Assembly: GCA_036377595.1 (NCBI GenBank)
Contig: DASUYB010000098.1
Span: forward strand, 1-53,740
Length of the DNA stretch: 53,740 nt
Origin: Longimicrobium sp.
GTDB taxonomy: Bacteria > Gemmatimonadota > Gemmatimonadetes > Longimicrobiales > Longimicrobiaceae
Reading direction: 5' to 3'
The notes beneath the pieces are model-generated. The model did not search any database. It saw nothing but the letters and a program-made list of their open reading frames with translations, and was not told the origin of the DNA. Position 1 is the first letter of the stretch; each line of letters starts with the position of its first letter. The position numbers and the translations under genes are program-made. This document shows, in pieces, positions 1-39,120 of the stretch.

Positions 1-1590
1 GTGAACCTGCCAGGTCGCCGGATCGAAGCTGCGCCGGCTTCCCCGCGGGTGGTTCACGCGGAAGAACTGGTGGTTGGAAAAGACATTGTTGAGCTGCTCA
101 GCACGGCGATGTATGTCGAACCGCTTGCGCTTTACCGCGAATACGTCCAGAACGCTGCGGACGCGATTGATCAAGCATGTCGCGCGGGCCTTCTCTCCGG
201 TCGCGCAGCAGGCCGAATCGACGTCTCGCTCGACGCTTCAGGCCGCGAGGTGCGGATTCGCGACAACGGGATCGGGCTACCAGCGTCTGACGCTGAGCGG
301 ATGCTGATCGCGTTCGGTGCGAGCCGGAAGCGAGGCGACGTGGAGAGTGGCGCCCGCGGCTTTCGTGGAGTTGGAAGACTAGCAGCGTTGGGCTATGCGC
401 AGGCACTTAGCTTTCGAACGAAAGCTCACGGCGAATTGCGCGGGACGGAAGTTCGGTGGGACTGCCGAAAGCTCCGGAGCATTCTGCTCGATCCGGAGTA
501 TTTGGGCGACCTACGCGACGTCGTGCGGGACGTGGTTACAGTCCGCGAAGGGCCGAAAGAGGAATTGGATTCGCATTACTTCGAAGTCCATCTCGAACGG
601 GTAGTGCGCCTTCGAAATGACCTTCTTCTCAACGAAGACGAGATCCGCTGTTATCTCGCTCAAGTGGCACCGGTTCCGTTCCCGCGCACCTTCAGGTTTG
701 CAACGGCCATTGAGGAGTACCTTAGCGATTTTTTGCCGGGGGGGCATTTCGAAATTCGCATCGGGAACTCAGAAGCTCGGGTCGAGCGCCCCTTTAGCGA
801 TGAATTCGCAATCTCTACAGGTAAGACGGACCGGTTTACGGAACTAGAGACGATCACCCTGGAAGACCCGGACATTGGCCTCGTGGCAGTGGGTTGGGTC
901 CTGCACCACGGCTACCACGGAGCAATTCACGCATCGCCTGGATTGCGAGGCCTCCGCGCGCGCGTAGGAGATCTCCAGGTGGGCGGACCCGAGATCTTCG
1001 CCGGCATCTTTCCCGAGTCGCGGTTCAATGCCTGGACAGTGGGCGAGTTGCACATCATTGATCCCCGAGTTGTCCCGAACGGGCGGCGGGATAACTTTGA
1101 ACAGAACGCGGCGGCACTCACATTGATTCACCGGCTTGGCCCACTCGGCCGCGGACTCGCTCACAAGTGCCGAGACAGTTCAGCCCGGCGTGTACGCTTG
1201 AAGAAGTTTGAAGCTAATGAGCGGAAAGCGATCGAGTCCTTAGAAATCCTAGAAGATGGAAAGATCGGGCGGGCAGCCGCCGACTTGATAGGGAAAGAGA
1301 TTGGGTCGGCACTCGGCCAGATGCAGATGCTGATTGAACACGACCTTCTTCTCAGGTCCGAGCAGGAGGAACTGCGCGACCGTCTCGAAACACTGCGCGT
1401 CAGATACGACGTAGTGCTTCGGGCCCCGGTGGGGAGCGCTCTGAAAGATGTATCAAAGAAGCAGCGGGCCGTATATGAGCAAGCAGTCCATTGGATCTTT
1501 GAATGCTCGCCGAACCGAGCTGCAGCGAAGGCGCTCGTAGATCGGATCGCGGCACGGATACAAGCCGGTGGGGACGGAGACTCTGCGTGA
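1..1590 (+). CDS. Hsp90-like GHKL ATPase (GHKL-1), defence-island type
   Basis: 529 aa from a GTG at the very first base, so the gene could begin upstream of the window. The N-terminal third carries the GHKL/Bergerat ATP-binding motifs: N-box with E47 and N51 (EYVQNAADAI), DNGIG at 88-92, and the glycine-rich lid GFRGVGRLA at 120-128. The rest resembles the HtpG/Hsp90-like middle region but matches no family I can name; the last 100 residues are rich in Glu/Leu and probably helical. An ATP-driven conformational switch is the family role; a chaperone function is unlikely in this context. It runs toward the minus-strand GHKL-2/methyltransferase-like pair. Its C-terminal 30 codons are echoed by a relic at 4235-4330, so a second copy once existed. 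Confidence 0.8.
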   Translation: MNLPGRRIEAAPASPRVVHAEELVVGKDIVELLSTAMYVEPLALYREYVQNAADAIDQACRAGLLSGRAAGRIDVSLDASGREVRIRDNGIGLPASDAERMLIAFGASRKRGDVESGARGFRGVGRLAALGYAQALSFRTKAHGELRGTEVRWDCRKLRSILLDPEYLGDLRDVVRDVVTVREGPKEELDSHYFEVHLERVVRLRNDLLLNEDEIRCYLAQVAPVPFPRTFRFATAIEEYLSDFLPGGHFEIRIGNSEARVERPFSDEFAISTGKTDRFTELETITLEDPDIGLVAVGWVLHHGYHGAIHASPGLRGLRARVGDLQVGGPEIFAGIFPESRFNAWTVGELHIIDPRVVPNGRRDNFEQNAAALTLIHRLGPLGRGLAHKCRDSSARRVRLKKFEANERKAIESLEILEDGKIGRAAADLIGKEIGSALGQMQMLIEHDLLLRSEQEELRDRLETLRVRYDVVLRAPVGSALKDVSKKQRAVYEQAVHWIFECSPNRAAAKALVDRIAARIQAGGDGDSA

Positions 1591-1603: not shown

Positions 1604-1623
1604 CGCATTCCGACCGGAATGCG
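1604..1623. repeat. Island palindrome, copy 1 (CATTCCG-AC-CGGAATG)
   Basis: Perfect 9-bp arms around a 2-bp centre, 14 bp after the GHKL-1 stop codon. The same 16-bp core recurs at 4348-4363 and 8614-8629 with a different central dinucleotide each time. The three copies separate the gene modules of the island. They could be protein-binding sites, recombination sites or short hairpins. A related half-matching sequence occurs near 24850, outside the island. Confidence 0.7.
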
Positions 1624-1638
1624 GTCTGTGATGGCGCT

Positions 1639-2421
1639 TCACAGCACGGGGCGCTCGAGCGCCCCGTGCTTCACGTGCCAGTATGGTGCTTCCTTCACGA
1701 GGCGGCTGAAGACGGTAGAGCCTTCAGCGAAGCTATAGCCGTAAAGGCCCATTGGCGATTTATCTCGATACTCGACGCAGCCGAAGCAACGCACGGCTAG
1801 TTCAGATTGCACCCCCGCGCGCGTGAGTCCGCGGTACAAAGTGAAGGAAGGGTGAGCGCGCCGATACCAGTGCTTTTTGCTCTCAGCATCATGCAGCTGC
1901 AGGATCCGAAACTCAGCATCTAGTCCCTGGTAAATTCGATTCCACCCGAGGTTCCTCCCGAGATAGCTCGTGACGAAGAGGACGTCATCTTCTCGTAGGC
2001 GACCGTCCTGAAACATTGAAGCGAACTGAATGTGGAAATCGCCTGCGGCGCATACACCCTCGAGATCCAGAAAGAGGATCGCTGGTAGATCATCATCTTC
2101 CCGGACGTAGTCAAACAAATTACCTCGACTTGTTTGCACTTCGATGGGTGGGTCGGCGGTCGCGAGTTTTCGCGACGTTTCCGCCGCGATTCGCGCACGT
2201 ACCGGATCGATTTCGTACGAGGTGGCTTGGGTGACGAGATTGGGGTCGATAAACCAGAGGTTCTGAACGTCTCGCAGTTCGGTGCCCCCCAGCGTGACAT
2301 AGCGGTATCGTTCAGCGCTTCCGAAGTGCCGAAGCCAGCGCGCAAATAGCAGGTGGAAAGCCGCGTATTTGGCCGGCCCGAAGATCCTCCGGTTTTTGTC
2401 GTCCTTTTTCTTGGCAATCAC
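1639..2421 (-). CDS. Rossmann-fold, methyltransferase-like protein of the GHKL module
   Basis: 260 aa. The start is a GTG whose last bases overlap the stop of the upstream GHKL-2 gene (GTGA), so the two are translationally coupled. The pattern YRYVTLGGTE (about 43-52), then SYEID (about 70), then GNLFDYV and ILFLDLEG (about 115) resembles a class I SAM-methyltransferase core: glycine-rich loop, acidic end of beta 2, and an aspartate after beta 4. The glycine motif is not canonical, however, and I see no catalytic NPPY or similar motif. It may be a nucleotide-binding or degenerate methyltransferase fold acting with GHKL-2. The family is not recognised; the functional call is tentative. Confidence 0.6.
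   Translation of the reverse strand: MIAKKKDDKNRRIFGPAKYAAFHLLFARWLRHFGSAERYRYVTLGGTELRDVQNLWFIDPNLVTQATSYEIDPVRARIAAETSRKLATADPPIEVQTSRGNLFDYVREDDDLPAILFLDLEGVCAAGDFHIQFASMFQDGRLREDDVLFVTSYLGRNLGWNRIYQGLDAEFRILQLHDAESKKHWYRRAHPSFTLYRGLTRAGVQSELAVRCFGCVEYRDKSPMGLYGYSFAEGSTVFSRLVKEAPYWHVKHGALERPVL
1643..1670. terminator. Perfect 28-bp palindrome between convergent genes
   Basis: Two 14-bp arms meet at CTCGAG (AGCACGGGGCGCTC and its complement), giving a stable GC-rich stem in RNA from either strand. It lies where GHKL-1 (+) and the methyltransferase-like gene (-) converge and overlaps the last codons of the latter. A bidirectional terminator role is inferred; there is no clear U-tract. Confidence 0.5.
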
Positions 2422-4028
2422 CGTTTAGATTTCCTTAATACCCAGTTTTTAATGCTGGAGGAGAGCTCATTGGCCGTTGCCCTCTGCTGGAAATCACCGA
2501 CAATCCCGAACTGTGCTGCTAACGTTCGCGCTTGGTCGGTTGTAAGCGTGAACGTCACCTGAATGGTGTCTCGTTGTTTTTTCTTCGGCGTTACCTTGGG
2601 ACGATAGACCGTATCGGGGAGCGCCGCGCCTCTCCCGCGCTTCGGACCGATTGCCACGGTTGCCCGATGCGGGATAGCGAGATCCCGTTTTGAGCGGTCG
2701 ATGATGTTCGCGAGCGGCGTTTGGATCAGATTCGAAACCTCGCCCGATGCTGCAATTGCGGCGTACGTTGCTCTCCAGTTATCGAAGAGGTTTCTCACCA
2801 ACTTGTGAGTGGTGAGCAGGCGCATGATGTCACGGTCGGTGTTCAAGTGCCGCTTATGCGTATCCCACGGAATGAATACATTGGGCCCTTTGATGTTGAT
2901 ATAGCCCCGAATGAGGTTTTTCGCTGCGCTGGCGGGAAACCGGTCAGCGAACGTAGTCTGATCGTAGGCTACGAAAAGTCGATCATTCCCGTATAGATCA
3001 ATCCCCCAAGAGGGACCGCCTTTCTTCGAACCGGAAGTTCTCCGGCATCCAAGCACCACTTCAATCTGTACATCGTGTTTGCGGCCTTCAAGTTCCAATA
3101 CGGCTTCGAAGGTCACCTGTTGTGGCCGAATATCAATCTCGCCAGCGTGAGTGGCGCTAAAATCGTATAGATCGTCGAGGGGCTTGAGTGGCTGCGACCG
3201 ATCTAAGAAATAAATTTTGATTGCGGGATTGCGGATAAGTAACAGCGTGTAGGTCAGTTGAATCTGATCTACAATCTTCTGGACTTGATCCGGTTCTGTG
3301 TACCAAGGAGCTCCACCGACCGGCTCCTCTCTCAATTGGAACACATATCGTGTCTGGCCCTTCTCGATTACGCTCTTGTCCTTCAAGAGGGCGTATGGGA
3401 AGTCGTAACGATCAGGATCGTTGATCCACTCCGGGCCTAACTGTACGGCAATGGCATCGTCCGTTGTCCCTGCGGGGTTCCAGTACCTCGTGACGATGGC
3501 CGCTGCTTCGGCCAATCGGAACACAGCTTTTTTCCCGCCGGTCTTGTAGCTCCCGATCGTTGGTGAAAGCGCGGTCGTGTCGCTAAAGCCCGGCACAACG
3601 AGGTGCTCAAGCTTGTCGACGGACACGCCGCCAGCGTTGTCCTCGTAAGTCAGTTGGTTCGATTCTTCGTCAATATCTATGTAGATATTGAGCTCGGGCG
3701 CCGTCTTATCGGGAACCTTCGTTCGCCGCCGTAACCATTCGTCAATACTATTGTCAATCAATTCGAGGAGGGCCTCAGACCGATCAAGATCGCGCCAAGC
3801 GCCGAGAACAACGTCCTTCGTAGGCGGCTTTCCCGCTGTCTTCAACTCGCCGACGTTATCTGGCTGCCACAGCCGGATTTCCCGTGCCAAGTGCTCACGG
3901 AACTCGCTATCAAGCTCCTCACCCAGTCGGTAATCTTGGACGATCTGATCCATCGACCGTGTCGCTAGAACCTCAATGCGCTCCGAATGCGCGAGGTCGT
4001 TCCAGTCCGTTCGGCTGTCGGTTGGCAT
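2418..4028 (-). CDS. GHKL ATPase (GHKL-2), MORC/MutL-like
   Basis: 536 aa; ATG preceded by GAAGGAGC at a good spacing. The ATP site is complete: E89 and N93 in ELIDNSIDEW, DNAGG at 130-134, and a long glycine-rich lid (GSYKTGGKKAVF, 159-170) with the KTGGKK signature typical of MORC-type rather than HSP90-type GHKL proteins. A middle S5-like region and a basic C-terminus follow (PKVTPKKKQRD near 470). MORC-like ATPases are known in prokaryotic restriction-like conflict systems beside SNF2 helicases and nucleases, which fits this island. It is coupled to the methyltransferase-like gene downstream. It is clearly different from GHKL-1, so the island carries two GHKL classes. Confidence 0.8.
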   Translation of the reverse strand: MPTDSRTDWNDLAHSERIEVLATRSMDQIVQDYRLGEELDSEFREHLAREIRLWQPDNVGELKTAGKPPTKDVVLGAWRDLDRSEALLELIDNSIDEWLRRRTKVPDKTAPELNIYIDIDEESNQLTYEDNAGGVSVDKLEHLVVPGFSDTTALSPTIGSYKTGGKKAVFRLAEAAAIVTRYWNPAGTTDDAIAVQLGPEWINDPDRYDFPYALLKDKSVIEKGQTRYVFQLREEPVGGAPWYTEPDQVQKIVDQIQLTYTLLLIRNPAIKIYFLDRSQPLKPLDDLYDFSATHAGEIDIRPQQVTFEAVLELEGRKHDVQIEVVLGCRRTSGSKKGGPSWGIDLYGNDRLFVAYDQTTFADRFPASAAKNLIRGYINIKGPNVFIPWDTHKRHLNTDRDIMRLLTTHKLVRNLFDNWRATYAAIAASGEVSNLIQTPLANIIDRSKRDLAIPHRATVAIGPKRGRGAALPDTVYRPKVTPKKKQRDTIQVTFTLTTDQARTLAAQFGIVGDFQQRATANELSSSIKNWVLRKSKR

Positions 4029-4234
4029 GACGCTCCTTCGATACAGTGAGAGCAGGAGTTGCTGCTGGCCCTGTCGATGCGAAGCAGCCTACAATGGCAG
4101 GAGGAACTGAGGAGCGGGACCTGAAATCTGATGAACCGCAGCGGACAGCGTGCTCCCCCCACGATACCCTCCCAAGCACATGCAGGGGGAGAAAAATGAC
4201 ACTTACCTCTTTAATACGCAATTCCTCGGGTTGA

Positions 4235-4330
4235 CGGATTTTCGAGTGCTCACCCAACAGAGCTGCGGCCAAAGTGCTGGTGGAGCGCATCGCTGCTCGA
4301 ATCCAGGAGTGTGACGACAACGGCAATTAG
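4235..4330 (+). pseudogene. Relic: 3' end of a GHKL-1 paralogue
   Basis: Thirty-one codons, in frame up to a TAG, encode IFECSPNRAAAKVLVERIAA and then RIQECDDNGN. GHKL-1 ends IFECSPNRAAAKALVDRIAA then RIQAGGDGDSA. The protein match is close, whereas the DNA differs at many synonymous positions, so this is the tail of a diverged paralogue rather than a fresh duplication. An in-frame TGA (4232) and unrelated sequence lie directly upstream. Copy 2 of the island palindrome follows 17 bp after the stop, just as copy 1 follows GHKL-1. This marks a recombination scar at the edge of the GHKL-2 cassette. Confidence 0.8.
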
Positions 4331-4346
4331 GGAGCCGGCCCCACGC

Positions 4347-4364
4347 GCATTCCGGTCGGAATGG
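4347..4364. repeat. Island palindrome, copy 2 (CATTCCG-GT-CGGAATG)
   Basis: Arms are perfect over CATTCCG/CGGAATG. It follows the relic stop codon at nearly the same distance as copy 1 follows GHKL-1. Its right flank (GAATGGAGTTCAG) resembles that of copy 3 (GAATGCAGGTCAG), so the repeated unit is longer than the palindrome. Confidence 0.7.
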
Positions 4365-4371
4365 AGTTCAG

Positions 4372-4397
4372 AGCCTCCGCAGTTCCACGCGGAGGCT
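4372..4397. terminator. Hairpin downstream of the ParB-B gene
   Basis: AGCCTCCGC pairs with GCGGAGGCT around an 8-nt loop, 24 bp past the minus-strand ParB-B stop codon. On the plus strand it is followed by TTGAGTTT; on the minus strand there is no U-run. A terminator for the four-gene operon is inferred from position. Confidence 0.45.
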
Positions 4398-4420
4398 TTG
4401 AGTTTCCTCATCGACGCCCT

Positions 4421-5476
4421 TCAGCCGTTCTTCTGCAAATTACCCAAAATGCGCAGGAGTTGCCTCACCTCGAAAGTAATCTGTGGGCGCAGAGGGCCAT
4501 CAGCCGCAGATAGTGCGTCCCGCACATCCTGCTGCGCCAGCCACTTTCGAAACTTTGTGAGCTTCTGATAATGGCTGTGGTCCCCGCCCGCTTCAACGGC
4601 GCGGTCAAACGCTTCCTCGAACCCATACCTTCCTGTGCTGAACCCGCGAAGGACTTTGGGGGGTCCCTCACAAATCACAGGAAGCTTGTCACGGAGATCC
4701 TGAGCCCTCGGAATCTCTCCAGATTTGATCTGCGCTACCACCAGCTCCTCAAACTCCGGGTGCAGGTCACGCGCTTTCGAGATCTTTCGTGACTTGATGA
4801 ACTCGTCGTAATAGCTCCATCGCTCACGCTGCGTGTCATCGTGCTTGACCATAAACGCATAGGCTTCAACGAGCCGGCGCACCTTTGCGCGAGACAAGCC
4901 TACACCCGCAGCCAGATCGTCAATTGCAACACCGTGCACCATATGGCGTCGGTATAGGTATCCTGCTTGTTCAAAGGGCGGCCATTCCTTCTTCCCCCGG
5001 AGGTGCCACTGACCCAGGAGAGCGGAAATAACCGACTCATCAATATCGTCTGGTAGGAGCGCACATTTGACTCTGGCCCAGCGGATCGGGTCTTTCGTAG
5101 CGAGAATCCGGTAAGCTGCAAGCCGACTGTTGCCCTCGATCACATCGAGGGTTCCTCCTCTGACGTACAGCGGATCGATTAGACCACCGTTTTCGCGAAT
5201 CTGGTGAACCAGCTCCTTCACATGATCCATCTCTTGCAGGGTTTGCTGAATTTCTTCCTGCGTAGGCTCATGCGCGGCTCCGTTTCGAACGACGGAATAT
5301 ACCCTTGGGTTATCTGCGTAGTATAAAAGATCGGCGTGTCGTAGCTCGCCGACCCGGATGGGAATTTGCTGTTTCCGAATGACGAGAGTGTCGTGCACGA
5401 AGGAGTCAGAGCCCTTCGCAGCAACGGGAACTGCTTCGGCGGCGGAAGCACGCCGTCCGGCGGTCGTCGTTCGCAT
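4421..5476 (-). CDS. ParB/Srx-fold protein with HTH (ParB-B)
   Basis: 351 aa. The ATG overlaps the helicase stop (TAATG), so it is the last gene of a coupled operon. The N-terminal part has the ParB-like core: a pairing of GGLIDPLYVRGG (98-108) with DVIEGNSRLAAYR (111-123), the family's nucleotide-binding segment. An HTH follows (VAIDDLAAGVGLSRAKVRRL, about 190-210) and then a long helical C-terminus. There is no ParA partner and no parS-like cluster, so chromosome segregation is unlikely. ParB-fold proteins in islands are known as nucleases or sequence-recognition subunits. It is paralogous in layout to ParB-A; the pair flanks the helicase and nuclease. DNA recognition for the complex is inferred. 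Confidence 0.75.
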   Translation of the reverse strand: MRTTTAGRRASAAEAVPVAAKGSDSFVHDTLVIRKQQIPIRVGELRHADLLYYADNPRVYSVVRNGAAHEPTQEEIQQTLQEMDHVKELVHQIRENGGLIDPLYVRGGTLDVIEGNSRLAAYRILATKDPIRWARVKCALLPDDIDESVISALLGQWHLRGKKEWPPFEQAGYLYRRHMVHGVAIDDLAAGVGLSRAKVRRLVEAYAFMVKHDDTQRERWSYYDEFIKSRKISKARDLHPEFEELVVAQIKSGEIPRAQDLRDKLPVICEGPPKVLRGFSTGRYGFEEAFDRAVEAGGDHSHYQKLTKFRKWLAQQDVRDALSAADGPLRPQITFEVRQLLRILGNLQKNG

Positions 5477-6981
5477 TAGTTCTCTTCACCTTCAGGGGCT
5501 GAGGCAGGTGGTTCCACTCCCAACACGCGCGCGAGCAGCTCGACAAACGAGTAGGTCGCGCGTTCGCGGTATTCTTTTAGCGCGATGTCGCCTTGGACCA
5601 ACATGGCAGCCAAGTGTTTCGCGCCCAGCAGCTCATCGACCCATTCGTCGATGGTTCCCCGCATCGAGATGTTGTGAATAAAGCAAGCCCGGTTCTGTGA
5701 GATTCGATGAATTCGATCTTGAGCCTGCAAGTAGTCATCGAGGCTGAAGCCGCGGTCATAAAACACCGCGTGATTTGCGACCGTCAACGTTAGCCCCTCC
5801 TTGGCCGCGCCGGGCGTCGCAATTAATACCTGGACTGACGCATCGCGTTTGAAGGAGTCGAGCGACCGGTTCCTTTCGGCGATTGACATCCTGCCATGCA
5901 CGCGTACGGTACCGAGGCGGCGAAGCGCTCGGGCGAGCCAATCCACGTTCTCGGTGAACGTCGTCCAAACGACCGCTTTAGAGACTCCATCGGCGAGAGC
6001 TTCGGAAAGGAGCAGCTCCAGCGCCGGCAGTTTTCCAGGGGTGCGTGCATACGCGGCATCGACAAGCCGCGGGTTCGAAGCAACCTGCACCAGCCTAAGG
6101 AGTCGCTTCAAGACATCATCTACCTTGTCAACTACTGGCACGCCGCCCCTGACGATTACGGCGCGAAGCTCGTCTCGATAAGTTTCATACAATTCCTCTT
6201 GAATTTCCTCTGGGTCTACCCAGACCGTATCAATCTCTTTGTCAGGCAGAGAAAGGCCAGCCGTATTCTTGGTTTCGCGGACGCAAAACGGACGTAGCGT
6301 TTCCCAAAGACTATCAAGGCGAGACTCGAACGCTTCCCGGGTGACTGGGTTGTGAGCGAGGTCGGACGAGAGATCGTAATCGCGCTTGAACTCGGGAAAA
6401 TCGTCCCCGAGTGTCGCTCCGCCGTCCAAGAAACGGATTAAGGCCCAAACATCGTATGGGCGGTTTGCTACTGGTGTTCCGGTCATCACCACTCGGCGGT
6501 GAAACAGTGGGCCGAGCCGAAACAGTACACCGGCAATCTTACTTTCGGGATTTTTAAATTTCTGCGCCTCGTCGCAGATCACCCCAACACGGCGCGTCTT
6601 CAGGAAGAGAGTGAGGCGGCCCTCTTCCGCGATACATGTCTCATAGTGCGTTAAGAATAGTCGCGCTGGACTGTTTAGCGCGAAGTGATTATCGCGGCGA
6701 TTCTGACCTATCACCCGCGGAGTCAGGTAAGAATGAAATCGAATCTCGGTTTTCCAGTTCTCAACCAGCGAGTTTTTCGTGATGATCAACACCGAATCAA
6801 CAACGTTCTGAGTTAACCACGTAAGGGCTAGATCAATCGCAATTTTTGTCTTTCCCAACCCCTGCTCATGGAATAGCGCAGCGAATTCCAGCCGCTCAAT
6901 CGCCTGGACAGCTTCAACTTGGTAGGGAAAGGCCGCTTGCTTGGGGCGGCGGTCCGCCTCCTTCCGTACGCGGAGCGTCAC
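5476..6981 (-). CDS. SNF2/Rad54-type superfamily 2 DNA translocase
   Basis: 501 aa from a GTG at 6981 that overlaps the nuclease stop (GTGA). An in-frame ATG at 7089 exists but would overlap the nuclease by 112 bp, so I prefer the coupled GTG. Motifs in order: Walker A HEQGLGKTK (about 38-46), DEAQ Walker B (137-140), TGTP motif III, and the SNF2-type motif VI QAQDRIHRISQ near residue 430. ITKNSLVENW after motif I is typical of the SNF2 group. Such enzymes translocate on double-stranded DNA and remodel or load partners rather than unwind strands. Encoded between a nuclease and a ParB-like protein, it is probably the motor of the system. Confidence 0.88.
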   Translation of the reverse strand: MTLRVRKEADRRPKQAAFPYQVEAVQAIERLEFAALFHEQGLGKTKIAIDLALTWLTQNVVDSVLIITKNSLVENWKTEIRFHSYLTPRVIGQNRRDNHFALNSPARLFLTHYETCIAEEGRLTLFLKTRRVGVICDEAQKFKNPESKIAGVLFRLGPLFHRRVVMTGTPVANRPYDVWALIRFLDGGATLGDDFPEFKRDYDLSSDLAHNPVTREAFESRLDSLWETLRPFCVRETKNTAGLSLPDKEIDTVWVDPEEIQEELYETYRDELRAVIVRGGVPVVDKVDDVLKRLLRLVQVASNPRLVDAAYARTPGKLPALELLLSEALADGVSKAVVWTTFTENVDWLARALRRLGTVRVHGRMSIAERNRSLDSFKRDASVQVLIATPGAAKEGLTLTVANHAVFYDRGFSLDDYLQAQDRIHRISQNRACFIHNISMRGTIDEWVDELLGAKHLAAMLVQGDIALKEYRERATYSFVELLARVLGVEPPASAPEGEEN

Positions 6982-7397
6982 GAGCGCAGTTCCGTTTCGA
7001 ATGGGAGAATTATCGATTCGACGCGTTCTGCCCTCACGGCCAGCTTCGCGTTGCGAACAATAGATCTTGCGGTCCCGGCGAGTGGCCACGGGATAGCGAT
7101 AACCAGTCTGGGATCAGGCTGAAGGGCCAAGTGCTCCAAATAAGCGTGCAACTGCCGGCGAGAGCGACGCGTCTCCAGATCCCGGTACCACTTTGCTTCC
7201 CCAATGATCAAGAAACTGGATGGCACGGTGCGGGCAACGACATCAGGTACGAAGCCTCCGACCGGGAATGGCTTGTTGCCTGGATCTGCTTCCGGACCGT
7301 CCCGGAAAATGCAGAGCCCCGGGTGAGCGCCGTGGTGCTCCACCACCCACCGTACAATGCGGTCGACAAGTCGCGCATGCTGCGCGGACTCAGGCAT
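6978..7397 (-). CDS. PD-(D/E)XK-fold nuclease, small
   Basis: 139 aa. The catalytic pattern of the restriction-endonuclease fold is visible: D52 in GGFVPDVVA, then E67 and K69 in FLIIGEAKWY, followed by an RRQLHAYLEHL helix with the conserved Q. This matches VRR-NUC/Holliday-resolvase-like or type II restriction-like nucleases of minimal size. Its stop overlaps the helicase GTG, so motor and nuclease are translationally coupled. It starts 51 bp after ParB-A. DNA cleavage as the effector step of the system is inferred. No cognate methyltransferase with classical motifs is adjacent, so self-protection is unexplained. Confidence 0.75.
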   Translation of the reverse strand: MPESAQHARLVDRIVRWVVEHHGAHPGLCIFRDGPEADPGNKPFPVGGFVPDVVARTVPSSFLIIGEAKWYRDLETRRSRRQLHAYLEHLALQPDPRLVIAIPWPLAGTARSIVRNAKLAVRAERVESIILPFETELRS

Positions 7398-7448
7398 CCT
7401 CGTTCCTCGACTCGTGTCCCTCTCGCCGTCGGCCTAAATCGCAGCCTT

Positions 7449-8477
7449 TTAGACCAATCCCACCTCGTTTACGATCTCCTGCAGGGCTTCGTATGCTTCG
7501 AGAAGATGTTGCGCCGTCGGAGAGGTGGGATCGTCCTTCATCTTCCGAACATCCCGGAACTCGATACGGTTGACGGCTTCCGCCAGTGCTCGGCAAAGAG
7601 CTGCTAGTGGCACGTCGTGCAACTGCTTCTGCGTATCTGGCCCTTCCACAATCCGTATCGCCTGTTCGATACCATCCTTCAAGAAGACCTCTGTAGCCTT
7701 GCGATCGCGCAGAATCTTGGGAAGCCAGCGTACATGAGCCAGCTTATCAATCCGCTCGTCGATGATCCACTGGGCGAAATCGCTAAATGTATGGCCTGAG
7801 CGGACAATGGCGTCCTTTACGCCAGATTTCTGTAACTCAACGAACCCGCTGAAACGGCGAAGATCGAAGTCTGCGTCGGATTCCAACAGCGGCCGATAGT
7901 AGTGTTCCATGTCCGAGTACGCGTCGAGCAATTCGGTCACGGCGCGCCTGCTGCCGCCACAGAAATCGACCAGTCGGTCCGCGGAGAAGTTTGCGACGTT
8001 CCGCAGATACGTCAGGTATTTAGCCTTTGAATAGGGGTCCCATTGCCGCGGACCGACGAGATGAGCTTGTAGCCGGATCGCGTGAACATCCTCCTCCGTG
8101 ATCTGCTCGTGAACGATCGAAGGAATCCGTTCCCACGGGCCGGGAATCTCCGCAGCAAGGAAGTCCTTATAGAGCGCTACTCTGGTATTCCCCTCAATAC
8201 AGACAAACTGTCCATCGTCTCTAAGCCGCAAGATCACAGGCTGAACAATCCCGCGGTTGGTGAGAATGGACTGTTTCAGCTTCGAGAACGTAGGACCGCT
8301 GTTGCCATCTTCGTCTCCACCCGCACCAAGCGCGAGAAAGATCATCTCCGCGGTGTACGGCGGTTCCTGAGCGTCCAGAAACGCCGCAATCCTGGGGTTT
8401 TCCTCGTCGAGTTGAATGGATGCGACAGGCACTTCCTGATACTGACCGCCTGCACGGTCAGGAGCTGGAGCTGTCAT
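7449..8477 (-). CDS. ParB/Srx-fold protein (ParB-A), first gene of the operon
   Basis: 342 aa from an ATG at 8477; the frame stays open to 8570 but the upstream codons show no conserved sequence. The ParB-like N-terminus is clear: VPVASIQLDEENPRI (17-30), then GIVQPVILRL and VCIEGNTRVALY (91-102). A C-terminal helical region follows with possible HTH (GGSRRAVTELLDAYSDM) near 180. It differs strongly in sequence from ParB-B but has the same EGN(T/S)R core. It opens the ParB-A, nuclease, SNF2, ParB-B operon. No CTPase-type GxxR(R/S)xA box of true chromosomal ParB is evident, which supports a non-segregation role. Confidence 0.75.
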   Translation of the reverse strand: MTAPAPDRAGGQYQEVPVASIQLDEENPRIAAFLDAQEPPYTAEMIFLALGAGGDEDGNSGPTFSKLKQSILTNRGIVQPVILRLRDDGQFVCIEGNTRVALYKDFLAAEIPGPWERIPSIVHEQITEEDVHAIRLQAHLVGPRQWDPYSKAKYLTYLRNVANFSADRLVDFCGGSRRAVTELLDAYSDMEHYYRPLLESDADFDLRRFSGFVELQKSGVKDAIVRSGHTFSDFAQWIIDERIDKLAHVRWLPKILRDRKATEVFLKDGIEQAIRIVEGPDTQKQLHDVPLAALCRALAEAVNRIEFRDVRKMKDDPTSPTAQHLLEAYEALQEIVNEVGLV

Positions 8478-8612: not shown

Positions 8613-8630
8613 CCATTCCGGCCGGAATGC
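8613..8630. repeat. Island palindrome, copy 3 (CATTCCG-GC-CGGAATG)
   Basis: Third copy of the palindrome, upstream of the ParB-A operon and on the integrase-proximal edge. Arms are perfect over seven bases. The 8478-8983 interval has no convincing gene; this palindrome and a GC-rich stretch (8640-8690) are all I see there. Confidence 0.7.
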
Positions 8631-8983: not shown

Positions 8984-9385
8984 ATGCTCCACGCGCTCAC
9001 CCCGGCCGACCTCCCCGAGACCTGGCGCGCGCTCGCCATGCAGCAGCGCAGCCTGGGCGCCGACGCGCAGGCCCGCACCCTCGAATGGTGTGCGGACCAG
9101 CTCACCACGGCCATGCTGCAGAAGGCGGACGAGCTCCTGAGCCTGCGCCGTGCAGCCCAGGAATCCGGCTACAGCGTGGACCATCTTAGCCTCCTCTTGC
9201 GTGAAGGAAGAATCCCGAATTCCGGACGCAAGGGCAAGCCGCTGATCCGTCGCAAGGACCTCCCGAGAAAAGCGGAGAAAACGAGGGTCAAACCTTGTCT
9301 TTCGCCGCTGAGTGGGTATGTTCCGGACAGGCTCTTCCGGGACATCATCCACTCCAAATTGGGAGATGATGATGCCCAAAGCTGA
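8984..9385 (+). CDS. Excisionase-like HTH protein
   Basis: 133 aa; its end overlaps the integrase start by a few codons. The middle contains a MerR/excisionase-type helix-turn-helix: LLSLRRAAQESGYSVDHLSL followed by LLREGRIPNSGRKGKPLIRR, the pattern in which the wing reads a lysine/arginine-rich sequence. The N-terminal part is an acidic helical stretch with no family match. Overlap with a tyrosine integrase gene and position beside a tRNA fit a recombination directionality factor or an integrase regulator. No strong ribosome site precedes the ATG. Confidence 0.7.
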   Translation: MLHALTPADLPETWRALAMQQRSLGADAQARTLEWCADQLTTAMLQKADELLSLRRAAQESGYSVDHLSLLLREGRIPNSGRKGKPLIRRKDLPRKAEKTRVKPCLSPLSGYVPDRLFRDIIHSKLGDDDAQS

Positions 9386-10649
9386 GAAGAAGTGCTGGTC
9401 CGAGTCGTTCGGTATGTACGGCTCGACCATCCGCGTAGCAGAGCGGGAGCCCGGCGGGGTTCTCTACCTGCTATGGATTGACAACAAGGGTAAGCGGCAG
9501 AAGCGGAGCCTGGGTCATCGGGACCGCAAGCTCGGAAAGAAGCAGGCACTCGAGCTTGCCACCCGCATGGGCGAGATCACTCAGGGCGAGCAGCGGGAGC
9601 CCGAACCTGAGCCGCTCACGCTCCGCGAGGGAATCGCGCTCGCGTTCGATCCCGTCCGCGGGATGTACCCGACCGAGTCGAAGCACTCACGCGAATCCAG
9701 GAAGCTGGCCGAGCGCGGCGCGGAGATTCTCGGGCACGAGTTGCAGTGGGCCGAGCTCACCCCCGGGAAGATCCAGTACCTGGTCCGGGTGCTCGGGCGC
9801 CGCAGCAAGGATGGCCGCGGGGCGCGTACGGCCGAGTACATGTGCGACATGCTCTACGGCGTGGCGAGCTGGCTCCGGCAGGAGGAGTTGATCCCGGAGA
9901 CGGCCGCACTGCCGAAGCGGAACTGGAAGGTTCGCCTGAAGCAGGAATGGCAGGCGCTGACCGGGGTTCGCGTCGAGCCGAAGCGTCCCAGGCACTCCGT
10001 GGACGAGGTGGCGTTGATCTTCGCCGCGCTCCCAGCGGCGGACCCACGGCTGCGGTTGCTGGTGGAACTGGCGGCGGAACTGCGGGCGGGGCAGGCCGTG
10101 CGGGCGAAGCGAAGCGATCTGGTGCTGGACGCTGTTGGTGGGTTCGGCCTCGGTCGCTTCATCGTCCACGGGCGGGGGAAGAAGCACGGCGAGGTTGTCG
10201 ATCTCCACCCCGAGCTTCGCGCGCTCGTGGATGAGGTCCTGTCGGAGGGCTATCTCTCCGTGGCGGAGGCCGCGCTTCGCAGGAAGGAGATCGAGGACTA
10301 CTACCTCTTTCCCGCGGGGCGGCTGAAGGAAGGGAAGGCGCTGCTCGACTGGGTAACGCGCCAGCCGCTCGGTCCGACGGCGATCCGGGACATGTTCCGG
10401 GCGCTCGAAAAGGCGGCGGGTGTGGAGCACCAGGCGGGCCGGTCGTTCTACGGCCTGCGCCGGCAGGCGACGGACCTGGCGCCGGAGTTCGCGCAGGACG
10501 CCCGCGTGCTGAACCGGCTGACGGGCCACCTCGACAGCGCGACGCGTGAGCGGGTGTACCAGGACCCGCAGAACGAGATCGTCCGGGCGCGGGCGGCCAA
10601 GGCCCGGAGGGAGATGCGCCAGTACCTCGGCAAGGGGCAGGCGGCCTGA
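9372..10649 (+). CDS. Tyrosine recombinase, island integrase
   Basis: 425 aa from the third of three consecutive ATGs, six bases after GGGAG. The first part holds an Arm/SAM-like N-terminal region (GGVLYLLWIDNKGKRQKR). The C-terminal catalytic domain shows the arginine in LAAELRAGQAVRAKRSDL, the box II variant SFYGLRRQATDL (Tyr in place of the usual His of HxxR), LTGHLDSATRERVYQDP with the conserved His, and the nucleophile Tyr in RVYQDP. It ends about 90 bp from the 3' end of a tRNA-Pro gene, the classic arrangement for tRNA-targeting genomic islands. It most likely inserted the 1-10.7 kb island. Confidence 0.85.
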   Translation: MPKAEKKCWSESFGMYGSTIRVAEREPGGVLYLLWIDNKGKRQKRSLGHRDRKLGKKQALELATRMGEITQGEQREPEPEPLTLREGIALAFDPVRGMYPTESKHSRESRKLAERGAEILGHELQWAELTPGKIQYLVRVLGRRSKDGRGARTAEYMCDMLYGVASWLRQEELIPETAALPKRNWKVRLKQEWQALTGVRVEPKRPRHSVDEVALIFAALPAADPRLRLLVELAAELRAGQAVRAKRSDLVLDAVGGFGLGRFIVHGRGKKHGEVVDLHPELRALVDEVLSEGYLSVAEAALRRKEIEDYYLFPAGRLKEGKALLDWVTRQPLGPTAIRDMFRALEKAAGVEHQAGRSFYGLRRQATDLAPEFAQDARVLNRLTGHLDSATRERVYQDPQNEIVRARAAKARREMRQYLGKGQAA

Positions 10650-10724: not shown

Positions 10725-10739
10725 AATCACTTAAACCAG

Positions 10740-10813
10740 TCGGGACGGCCGGATTTGAACCGGCGACCCCCTGAACCCCATTCAGGTGCGCTACCGGGCT
10801 GCGCCACGTCCCG
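10740..10813 (-). tRNA. tRNA-Pro (anticodon GGG)
   Basis: Minus-strand cloverleaf: 7-bp acceptor (CGGGACG/CGTCCCG), anticodon stem CCTGA/TCAGG with loop ATGGGGT giving anticodon GGG, and T-arm with GGTTCAAATCC. The discriminator base is A; CCA is not encoded. It reads proline codons CCC/CCU. Its 3' end faces the integrase gene, so it is the probable attachment site of the island, with the 3' part of the tRNA restored on integration. The second att copy would lie left of the window. Confidence 0.93.
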
Positions 10814-18579: not shown

Positions 18580-18823
18580 GGCCGATGGAGCGCAAACCTC
18601 CATCCTGAGGCCCGCGAAGGACGCGCCTATTCGGCCTGCGTGCGCTAAGTAAAGGTGGTTTCGAACCGCAACATGTGAAGTAGACGACGGATTACGGCTG
18701 ATTGGTACAGGACGCGGTGGAGACTCCCGCGTTACCGGCGTGGGACGCGCCACTCAGGGCCGTCCCCGGCAGGGCCCGGACTTCGCCGGAGCCCCGATCA
18801 CCCACCTCCTCGGGAGGAAAGAC

Positions 18824-19096
18824 ATGCACGCGAAGCTGAACCTGAGTCTCGACGAACTGCGCATCCGTACCTTTACGCCCACCCTGGAAGAGGACGCCCC
18901 CGAGGGCGCCGTGCACGCGCTGTGCGGCGACTGCTCGAACTGCTCCGGCTGCACCGGCTGCTCGAACTGTTCGGACTGCAGCAACTGCTCGGACTGCAGC
19001 AACTGCTCGGACTGCACCGGCTGCTCGGACTGCACCAACTGCTCGAACTGCACCGAGTGCACCTCGTCGACCTGCTTCATCTTCACGCTGTACTGA
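18824..19096 (+). CDS. RiPP precursor 1, pinensin-type leader, Cys-every-third-residue core
   Basis: 90 aa; GGGAGG six bases before the ATG decides the start. The leader KLNLSLDELRIRTF (4-17) fits the (K/R)LxLx(L/I)(D/E)xLx(V/I)x(S/T)F pattern of pinensin-type lanthipeptides. From residue 34 Cys recurs at 34, 37, 40 and so on to 79 (16 Cys, period exactly 3), then C84 and a hydrophobic tail CFIFTLY. Fifteen of the sixteen period-3 Cys are followed by Ser or Thr, so every third residue could become Dha/Dhb next to a thiol. LanB/LanC-type processing is expected; no YcaO gene is seen. A metal-binding product cannot be excluded. The gap upstream (18580-18823) may contain its own promoter. Confidence 0.88.
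   Translation: MHAKLNLSLDELRIRTFTPTLEEDAPEGAVHALCGDCSNCSGCTGCSNCSDCSNCSDCSNCSDCTGCSDCTNCSNCTECTSSTCFIFTLY
18971..19042 (+). repeat. 18-bp tandem repeat inside precursor 1
   Basis: Four near-identical 18-bp units (TCGGACTGCAGCAACTGC and variants) within a longer 9-bp periodicity spanning the core (18923-19060). Each 9-bp step encodes Cys-Ser/Thr-x three times per 27 bases. Such repeats can expand or contract by slippage and change the number of Cys triads. Confidence 0.85.
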
Positions 19097-37472: not shown

Positions 37473-37631
37473 CAACAACCACACGAAGTCCCCCTGCGGG
37501 GACTACGGGCTTCGGCGCTGTCCAAGCCGCGGCGCTCGGTCCCGACAATCGTGCGAAGCCAGTCGCGAGCACCAACATCCCGGACCAACGAGAGCATGTA
37601 GTCCGCGAAGGCGGACTTCGTGTGGTTGTTG
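37473..37631. repeat. Hairpin repeat R1, left of the IS66 element
   Basis: Arms CAACAACCACACGAAGTCC and GGACTTCGTGTGGTTGTTG are complementary; each arm carries a small GC hairpin (CCCTGCGGGGACTAC; GTAGTCCGCGAAGGCGGAC). R2 (39127-39281) is the same unit inverted. A partial copy lies at 47657-47705. Confidence 0.85.
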
Positions 37632-37637
37632 CCGCGG

Positions 37638-39120
37638 TGTAACCGTTCAGGGGCCATGCGCGAAAGTTGTGGACTTCGTTCATGTTGGCCACTACATATT
37701 GTGGCTCATGAGCATAGTCGAGCAACTCGAGGCCAGCGGCGAGGTACTCTCGCCATCGTTGCGTGCTGCCGTGGAGCAGCAGGAGAGGCTCATCGCCGCC
37801 CTGCAGGAGCGCGTGCGGGAGCTGGAGGCGCGCCTGGCGCAGAACTCGACCAACTCGTCGAAGCCACCGTCGTCGGATCCTCCGGGCCTCGTCCGGCCGG
37901 GAAAGAAGCCGAAGGGAAGGAGGCGTGGCGGCCAGCCGGGGCACCGGGGCCACCACCGCATGCTTCTCCCACCGGAGCGGGTGGGCGAGGTGGTGCAGCA
38001 CGCGCCGGAGGCGTGCGAGCACTGCGGGCATTCGCTGGCGGGTGCGGAGGAAGCGCTTCCGGCGCAGGTGCACCAGACGGTGGAGCTTCCGCCGATCCAC
38101 GCCGAGGTGACGGAGCACCGGCTGAGGTGCCTGCGCTGCCCGAAGTGCTCGGGGCTGACCCGCGCGCCGTTGCCGTCGGGCGGCAAACACTTCGGCCCGC
38201 GGCTGACCGCGCTGGCAGGCGTGCTGGCCGGGCATTACCGGATGAGCCGCCGCTCGGTGCAGGACCTGGTGGGCCGGCTGCTGGATGTGCCGGCGCCGTC
38301 GCTGGGGAGCACGGAAGCCTGCACGCAGGAGACGAGCGCCGCGCTGGAAGCGGCGTACCGGGTGGTGCAGACCGAGGTGAGGGCGAGCTGGCGGGCAGGC
38401 GTCGACGAGACGCCGTGGAAGCTGTGCGGCAGGAAGATGTGGCTGTGGGTGGGCGTGGCCGACCGGGCGACGGCGTTCCACATCGGGCGCAGCCGGGGAA
38501 AGGAGGAGCTGAAGGAGTTCCTGGGCGACTTCGCGGGAATCGTCAGCAGCGACCGCTGGTGCTCCTACCAGGCCTGCGCGAAACGGCAGCTCTGCTGGGC
38601 GCACCTGATCCGGAACTTCCGGAAGCTCGCGCTGCGGGGCGGCATGGCGGCGGAGTTCGCGGCCGAGGGCGAGAAGATCTGCGACCGGGTCTTCGAGCGC
38701 TGGCGAAGCCACCAGGAAGGAACGCTGGCGCGGGACGAGCTGAAACGCGGGATGGCCCGCATCCGGGCGTCCTTCCGGCGTCTGGTCGAAGGCGGCGCGA
38801 AATCGATCAACAACCGGGTCGCACGCATGTGCCGCAACCTGCTGAAGCTGTGGGAATCGCTGTGGACCTTCCTCGACGAGCCGGTCGAGCCGACCAACAA
38901 CGCGGCCGAGCGCGCGCTGCGGAAGGCCGTGCTGTGGCGCAAGAGCAGCTTCGGCAGCCAGAGCGAAGCCGGGCTGCGCTACGCCGAGCGCATCCTCTCG
39001 ATCAGCGCGACCTGTCAGCAACAAGGAATTCATCCGCTCGACTTTGTAGCTCGCTCCATCGCAGCCCTGCGTGCTGGCACCCCCGCGCCCACGATTCTGC
39101 CGACCAACTGAACGGTTACA
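37638..39120 (+). mobile_element. IS66-family insertion sequence, single-gene type
   Basis: 1483 bp between TGTAACCGTTCAG (37638) and CTGAACGGTTACA (39108-39120). Inverted identity continues outward into the R1/R2 hairpins with one mismatch, so the true end is uncertain and could reach 37458/39303. No TnpA/TnpB genes are present and no 8-bp target duplication is visible at the inner ends. Confidence 0.82.
37708..39111 (+). CDS. IS66-type DDE transposase (TnpC-like)
   Basis: 467 aa from ATG 37708; an in-frame GTG at 37669 is a possible earlier start. Typical IS66 order: leucine-rich coiled coil (AALQERVRELEARLAQNSTN), SSKPPSSDPPG linker, Arg-rich GQPGHRGHH, a CxxC zinc-ribbon (EHCGHSL and RCPKC), then catalytic D in VDETPWK, D in SSDRWCSYQ, and E in PTNNAAERALRKAV. 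All three acidic residues are present, so it looks active. TnpA and TnpB, normally encoded before it, are missing; such one-gene IS66 variants exist. Confidence 0.93.
   Translation: MSIVEQLEASGEVLSPSLRAAVEQQERLIAALQERVRELEARLAQNSTNSSKPPSSDPPGLVRPGKKPKGRRRGGQPGHRGHHRMLLPPERVGEVVQHAPEACEHCGHSLAGAEEALPAQVHQTVELPPIHAEVTEHRLRCLRCPKCSGLTRAPLPSGGKHFGPRLTALAGVLAGHYRMSRRSVQDLVGRLLDVPAPSLGSTEACTQETSAALEAAYRVVQTEVRASWRAGVDETPWKLCGRKMWLWVGVADRATAFHIGRSRGKEELKEFLGDFAGIVSSDRWCSYQACAKRQLCWAHLIRNFRKLALRGGMAAEFAAEGEKICDRVFERWRSHQEGTLARDELKRGMARIRASFRRLVEGGAKSINNRVARMCRNLLKLWESLWTFLDEPVEPTNNAAERALRKAVLWRKSSFGSQSEAGLRYAERILSISATCQQQGIHPLDFVARSIAALRAGTPAPTILPTN

Follow-up and report, generated by a model that had tools for sequence, protein, structure and literature searches.

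A truncated GHKL-1 gene and a dispersed palindrome, probably a ParB loading site, on integrated mobile elements of Longimicrobium sp.

Introduction

Dispersed ParB-type sites are already known from RK2, IncC and N15, and GxRRxxA and ENxQR are the CTP-binding motifs of the ParB family. Mycobacteriophage L5 has its prophage silenced through many dispersed repressor sites, the stoperators, which are asymmetric and are bound by a repressor of another family. For RK2/RP4, the ParB-family clamp KorB is described as sliding from its OB operators and silencing at a distance (PMC11790492). IncC plasmids are reported to have parS palindromes with a 14-bp core at up to 14 scattered positions, in R55 four of these inside genes, and SGI1, an integrated island with two parS, borrows the plasmid ParAB (PMC10954446). 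Phage N15 is described with the SopB centromere sites IR1-IR4 (PMC7205306), the ParB paralogue Noc with many NBS sites scattered over a replicon (PMC4331003, PMC7383237), and a 2025 survey reports that orphan ParB proteins are numerous among mobile elements (PMC12704722).

Compared here with these systems is a stretch of 53,740 nucleotides from a Longimicrobium sp. genome (the window), which begins with a 10.7-kb island, together with two integrative conjugative elements (ICEs), one on contig C122 of the same genome and one on contig C198 of a genome from another genus of the same family (G224). Their likeness to KorB-OB lies in a protein of the ParB clamp family and palindromes, putative operators, on a conjugative element, the ParB of the C122 ICE matching both Pfam KorB and PDB KorB. 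However, the OB site differs (core TTTAGCGGCTAAA in the oligonucleotide given in PMC11790492), and the C122 ICE is integrated, with about 22 sites over its 43 kb (many of these in genes), and encodes a much longer ParB; a KorA or IncC partner was not identified at the ICE. With IncC and SGI1 the elements share scattered palindromes with a 14-bp core, some in genes, and an island with the sites of a putative helper. Whereas IncC plasmids as a rule have ParA and 12-14 sites (PMC10954446), the C122 ICE is the shorter element with the larger number of sites, and ParA was not found there. The window island may be an SGI1-like hijacker: it has three sites, an integrase, a tRNA-Pro and no HTH_ParB gene, its left part being missing from the contig; in contrast to SGI1, its borrowing is something we only infer. 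N15 likewise has palindromes with a 2-nt centre and is a temperate phage, but as a prophage it exists as a linear plasmid and has SopA, whereas the elements here are integrated, with a higher density of sites on the ICEs. Noc differs in its chromosomal role in division, and the NBS sequence differs from the dispersed site described here.

Results

A second GHKL-1 3' end in the window island

The following features were assigned in the window island:

1..1590, + strand: GHKL-1 ATPase gene (HATPase_c_3, 4.7e-8), 5' end possibly cut by the contig end
1495..1590, + strand: 3' end of GHKL-1, first direct-repeat copy (from alignment and codon count)
1606..1621, no strand: dispersed site 1, core ATTCCGACCGGAAT at 1607-1620
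1639..2421, - strand: 260-aa gene without Pfam or PADLOC match, its end converging with GHKL-1, 4-bp overlap with GHKL-2
2418..4028, - strand: GHKL-2 (HATPase_c_3, 2e-4, below cut-off)
4238..4330, + strand: 3' tail left from another, diverged GHKL-1 gene (relic), TAG at 4328-4330
4348..4363, no strand: dispersed site 2, core ATTCCGGTCGGAAT at 4349-4362
4421..5476, - strand: ParB-A, ParB N-domain-like, with weak PADLOC ParB-like matches and no HTH_ParB match
5476..7089, - strand: SNF2-type helicase (SNF2-rel_dom, 1.3e-29)
6978..7397, - strand: small gene labelled nuclease, no Pfam match, 32-38% identity in plasmid operons
7449..8477, - strand: ParB-B (ParB_N, 6e-4, below cut-off), 40-50% identity in plasmid operons
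8614..8629, no strand: dispersed site 3, core ATTCCGGCCGGAAT at 8615-8628, absent from an earlier note on this DNA
8984..9385, + strand: excisionase-like small gene, homologous to the integrase-adjacent gene of both ICEs
9369..10649, + strand: tyrosine integrase (Phage_integrase, 3e-4, below cut-off), at the island's right end
10739..10813, - strand: tRNA-Pro(ggg) (ARAGORN), probable attachment site of the island

Translation of 4238-4330 gives IFECSPNRAAAKVLVERIAARIQECDDNGN followed by TAG and matches residues 499-528 of GHKL-1, whose C-terminus is IFECSPNRAAAKALVDRIAARIQAGGDGDSA with TGA at 1588-1590. Tail and GHKL-1 are 73% identical over 30 aa (blastp, E 1.8e-12) and 69% identical over 129 bp of DNA (E 6.8e-11), and site 1 follows the stop codon of GHKL-1 at about 15 nt, site 2 that of the tail at about 17 nt. 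The earlier note had read tail, stop and palindrome as a repeat of the GHKL-1 end in the same orientation, which agrees with these alignments, its coordinates being right to within 3 bases. Its claim of two diverged parents is likewise borne out, as the first 23 codons comprise 17 synonymous changes, 2 replacements and 4 identical codons (pS 0.94, pN 0.04). Compared by eye, the tail is nearer to the window GHKL-1 than to the ends of plasmid homologues. On the 5' side of position 4238, tblastn of GHKL-1 on 4029-4340 returned the tail alone, and TGA is the codon directly before CGG-ATT. These comparisons suggest that the tail is the remnant of a second GHKL-1 lineage, long separated and under purifying selection, and since it shows no decay, the truncation may be recent.

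GHKL-1 is 38-46% identical to plasmid homologues, several of which come third in a DGQHR-radical SAM-GHKL operon; the genes upstream of the window GHKL-1 lie beyond the contig end. Relatives were found in 13 plasmid records for GHKL-1 and in 8 for ParB-A, which shares 52% identity with a ParB N-terminal domain protein from Mesorhizobium, while the plasmid search gave one weak match for GHKL-2 and none for the 260-aa gene. A search proposed by the earlier note, for GHKL-1 beside a ParB-A/SNF2 module elsewhere, found this arrangement on the Roseomonas mucosa plasmid p2-AD3, where DGQHR-radical SAM-GHKL-1 is followed after 33 bp by the converging genes ParB-A-SNF2-small (nuclease) gene-ParB-B; the radical-SAM homologue there is 70-74% identical to annotated radical SAM proteins. 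The p2-AD3 order is that of window 4238-8477 with a whole GHKL-1 replacing the tail, and the tail occupies the very place expected for the 3' end of a resident GHKL-1. Because p2-AD3 has the GHKL-1/ParB-A order uninterrupted, it is well supported that the tail is a relic from insertion or replacement. An island lacking just 1623-4234, also sought as that note had proposed, was not found in close relatives, and the note's cassette (1623-4234) is at best a candidate for a unit that moved as a whole. In Mesorhizobium NZP2077 and Rhizobium sophoriradicis the two modules are co-directional, and Novosphingobium pNL1 carries the DGQHR-radical SAM-GHKL module alone, without the ParB-A/SNF2 module. As the two modules are adjacent elsewhere, the window DNA with GHKL-1 and the GHKL-2 pair (1639-4028) appears to split them, the tail marking the resident GHKL-1. 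This gene would have belonged to convergent defence-type modules, DGQHR-radical SAM-GHKL-1 facing ParB-B-nuclease-SNF2-ParB-A, and may have lost its 5' part to incoming DNA with another GHKL-1 and the GHKL-2 pair. The nuclease in this order is putative: the label is ours, without a family match, for a small gene that is kept in the corresponding plasmid operon.

Among 80 relatives, GHKL-1 has a match in 4 genomes, its own included. In the genus of the window, one locus (G251:C104, 5931-15368) contains DGQHR-radical SAM-GHKL-1, 53% identical, with two more GHKL-like genes adjoining; neither ParB-A nor the dispersed site was found in the 40 kb read there. Three alphaproteobacterial plasmid loci (L196 9223-17469, L197 3289-11545, L199 3262-11527) have a conserved seven-gene association of DGQHR-radical SAM-GHKL with ParB-B/small gene/SNF2/ParB-A. 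Two of the three also have a PIN-like and GHKL pair next to it, and the association is possibly an uncharacterised defence system.

The excisionase-like gene (8984-9385) is the sole detected protein link between the window island and the ICEs (35%, 3e-7, and 34%, 2e-10, to the two homologues). The 10.7 kb of the island lack an HTH_ParB gene, the left part being beyond the contig end, and a sequence-overlap search of the genome for a contig neighbouring this end gave no matching copy. Elsewhere in the window, at 18740-19096, a small ORF with many CxxC repeats (CSNCSGCTGCSNC...) lies upstream of two further ORFs, one protease-like and the other large, and this region looks like a peptide biosynthesis cluster.

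Two homologous ICEs

A complete 43-kb ICE with direct-repeat ends occupies 31697-74581 of C122. It encodes an integrase, an excisionase-like protein, ArdC, ParB, a MobA/VirD2-type relaxase with a NikA-like gene, VirB8, TrbI, a coupling protein and a signal-peptidase-type gene; VirB4- and VirB11-like genes are our labels for ORFs matching type IV secretion (T4SS) regions in five other genomes. Its cargo includes a UvrD-type helicase and a GmrSD-type gene. The homologous ICE in G224 (C198 832-48001) has T4SS and relaxase genes that are mostly 63-92% identical to those of the C122 ICE, whereas its cargo differs and includes a DNA methylase and ResIII pair. One 13-bp direct repeat ends both ICEs (C122 31697/74569, C198 832/47989). 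Among plasmids, the relaxase and the ParB of the ICE had only distant relatives.

A DNA search of the phylum with VirB4 led, among its stronger matches, to five related T4SS regions (G245, G108, G105, G010, G032), in which ATTCC-N4-GGAAT was not among the top palindromes and a three-sequence profile, of unchecked sensitivity, detected no ParB. The G245 region (G245:C5 93818-108981; L171, L172) has another dispersed palindrome, AAGTGWWCACTT, with 5 exact copies and one with a single mismatch in 15 kb, and no copy outside these coordinates in the 80 kb read. As this ICE has a dispersed palindrome and no ParB by the three-sequence profile, dispersed palindromes need not mean ParB.

Confinement of the palindrome to mobile elements

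At up to two mismatches, 0.23 matches to the palindrome would be expected by chance in the window. In the whole genome, ATTCCG-NN-CGGAAT was found at 25 sites on two integrated elements, 22 on the C122 ICE and 3 on the window island. The 16-bp form CATTCCGNNCGGAATG has 20 copies in this 7.2-Mb genome, 3 in the window and 17 on contig C122, and with arms shortened to ATTCC and GGAAT (ATTCCNNNNGGAAT), 25 of 28 copies lie on the C122 element or the window island. All sites lie inside the ends of the ICEs, 22 on C122 and 17 on C198, counting one and two, respectively, with one mismatch. Only 2 of 395 genomes of the phylum have more than four copies of ATTCCGNNCGGAAT, this genome with 26 and G224 with 20, and the 16-bp form occurs in 3 of 21 genomes of the family (20, 7 and 1 copies). 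A wider contig search for the 16-mer returned at least 118 stretches, and the single site in each of the 80 listed represents background. Looser ATTCC-N4-GGAAT sites were found in G224 on two prophages, 8 on C5 and 4 on C207. In having many copies over one element and almost none on the host chromosome, the palindrome behaves as a dispersed parS/OB-type site. No obvious common sequence flanks the copies. Outside the elements, a site-like but distinct repeat, ATTCCGATCGGATGTC.TTCCGAGCGGCGCCGCTG, is present in both contigs (window 24851, C122 20402).

Conservation and spacing of the sites

All eight C122 sites that lie in DNA alignable with C198 are also sites there, with 96 of 96 arm positions identical, whereas 5 of 16 centre positions changed and the aligned DNA is 82% identical overall. 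Equal conservation of the same 12 positions is seen in 16% of all aligned windows, so that eight conserved sites in a row would be expected by chance at about 4 in 10 million, a product of our own that holds if the sites are independent. Sites within genes encode IPTGIP, HSGRN and AFRPE, that is, they are read in three frames, and they use rare codons: in 11 ICE genes, ATT makes up 9 of 148 Ile codons and AAT 12 of 126 Asn codons. Three reading frames and rare codons together argue that the constraint acts on the DNA, and conservation at the nucleotide level is a further trait of dispersed parS/OB-type sites. Both GHKL-1 ends in the window also retain the site despite saturated synonymous positions.

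The gaps between sites have a mean of 1.9 kb on C122, where the largest is 3.4 kb, and of 2.6 kb on C198. Random placement would give coefficients of variation of 0.96 and 0.95; those observed are 0.43 and 0.44 (P 1e-4 and 3.5e-4). On C122, every point between the two outermost sites is within about 1.7 kb of a site, and such even coverage would favour a coating of the element over promoter operators or one centromere.

Control of the palindrome scan

A blind scan for over-represented 6-bp inverted arms, to which no motif was supplied, was applied to 18 regions with 15 Markov sequences each. The two ICEs reached scores of 80 and 54 and N15 one of 10.6, whereas lambda, HK97 and Mu scored 0. For N15 exactly four sites were returned, with cores that match the IR oligonucleotides published as IR1 to IR3. 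Across all 18 regions, maxima of the Markov sequences ranged from 0 to 6.8. The highest score on host chromosome, 9.6, and a score of 7.6 came from two stretches with 3 copies each, and given such chromosome scores, three-copy clusters count only through a match to the ICE motif. For generality, two phage records besides N15 were sampled, both picked for encoding ParB. Acidovorax phage Aval, with 3 exact copies and a score of 8.9, is not above background, since the host chromosome reaches 9.6 with 3 copies. The ParAB-bearing Aphanizomenon phage Yong-DA (L204) scored 15.0 with five copies of TTCAGAC[GA]TCTGAA (3728, 15526, 19739, 31877 and 38139), the last inside parB (37616-38491), and these palindromes are probably parS sites.

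An element-encoded ParB as candidate reader

Both ICEs encode a protein of 790-825 aa with an HTH_ParB domain, at 42913-45285 on C122 and at 11078-13555 on C198. The C122 protein combines a ParB N-terminal domain with the HTH, with HTH_ParB (2e-12) and KorB (2.9e-6) above and ParB_N (9e-4) below the cut-offs, and it matches PDB ParB at 3e-15; the PDB relatives of the ICE ParB are ParB, Spo0J, Noc and KorB. The two ICE proteins are 40% identical and have the recognition stretch GKxQxYVSKRLA in common, so that key positions of the putative recognition helix are identical in both, as expected from the identical sites. At the positions of the CTP motifs, C122 has GRRRHAA and ENGQR and C198 has GRRRWTG and ENIHH.

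Among the HTH_ParB genes of the two genomes, two were taken as chromosomal (E 1e-36 or better), and the three others (C122, C198 and C5 prophage) all lie inside site clusters, each with a site near the start of the element parB (C122 43075, C198 11306, C5 106773). Two of the five site clusters, the window island, which is cut by the contig end, and the C207 prophage of G224, are without an HTH_ParB gene. In the C5 prophage ParB (L146:6770-8518), the recognition region is quite unlike that of the ICE proteins; the prophage sites resemble the ICE sites but are looser. No relatives of this ParB were found in viral contigs. A pattern search only, for KGGx[GA]K[ST] in ORFs of at least 100 aa of the C122 ICE, the C198 ICE, the island and the C5 region, gave no ParA, the partner in canonical ParABS systems, nor was a partner that separates partition from silencing found at these elements. 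Judged from these sequences, it is likely that the palindromes are recognised by the element ParB.

Discussion

The whole is probably best explained by two superposed features, a relic tail and a dispersed site acting as ParB loading site. From the observed sites, their confinement to elements, conservation and spacing, and their co-occurrence with parB, we propose that ATTCCG-NN-CGGAAT is a parS/KorB-operator-like loading site of the long orphan ParB encoded by the elements. By analogy with KorB as described in PMC11790492, ParB dimers would bind there, load as CTP clamps, slide over the adjacent kilobase or two and repress at a distance. Sliding ParB would thereby coat the integrated element, probably silencing it; element-wide silencing is the function we prefer, at slightly under an even chance. 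With its three sites, the window island may borrow the ParB of the resident C122 ICE, as SGI1 uses a helper ParB in the account of PMC10954446.

The earlier note had taken the palindrome as part of a cassette or scar, and an array of cassettes with recombination sites was the first hypothesis here also; it was dropped because sites lie inside T4SS, relaxase and parB genes. What was found is a 14-bp site that is scattered over a whole class of mobile elements and conserved by selection, with copies often inside conjugation-machinery genes at positions common to two genera, which does not fit a scar. In an integron-like array an integrase would cut at the palindromes, hence the module borders, and in the window the sites do lie between modules and near an integrase. 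However, seven sites are inside ICE genes rather than at borders only, those in relaxase, VirB4-like, TrbI and parB genes at the same positions in two genera, the flanks have no common sequence, and the even spacing persists despite differing cargo, which makes this reading extremely improbable. It is also very unlikely, if somewhat less so, that the tail is no relic but a conserved functional unit, a 3' RNA or terminator, repeated behind GHKL-1 genes. Frame, stop and site are indeed kept in both copies; recent truncation predicts an undecayed tail equally well, and in Roseomonas only 33 bp, without a second tail, separate GHKL-1 from ParB-A.

Two alternatives concern the reader of the sites and its function. 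The sites could be operators of an ordinary element repressor such as the XRE-type protein at C122 40201-40494, since the two ICEs have homologous HTH_3 genes in matching positions and palindromes fit dimers of such proteins. We regard this as quite unlikely, as many sites are inside genes and the motif is also on prophages with other regulators; the recognition region differs between the ICEs though the sites are identical, and for this lack of conservation the XRE-like protein is a weaker candidate than ParB. Alternatively, the sites might be dispersed centromeres at which ParB partitions the excised, replicating element, with silencing secondary. IncC carries scattered parS, SGI1 with two is described as stabilised through the plasmid ParAB (PMC10954446), and the N15 sites recovered by the same scan are centromeres. 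Yet even spacing over the whole element would be unnecessary for partition, a search of both ICEs, the island and the C5 prophage region gave no ParA-type Walker motif, and near the ParB N-terminus there is no ParA-binding motif of the LGKGL kind, as that motif is given in PMC12704722. A centromere role is therefore unlikely, though less so than the repressor.

As far as searched, in a literature that took in few subscription papers and no preprints, the tiling of an ICE, the density of the sites and their in-gene conservation across genera are new, as is one site common to ICEs, prophages and a defence island. For the orphan ParB proteins studied here, the probable targets can be read from sequence, being dense, even and conserved as DNA on the two ICEs and looser on a prophage, and a testable rule follows, namely that an element with an orphan parB should also carry a dispersed palindrome. 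More speculatively, and rather less likely than not, ICEs, prophages and defence islands of one lineage might share a 14-bp address, placed every 2-3 kb on ICEs, through which an orphan ParB clamp coats its own element and, within one cell, others that have borrowed the site. If true, one binding code would link conjugative elements, prophages and the window defence island, and element-wide chromatin would be made by the mobile DNA and not by the host.
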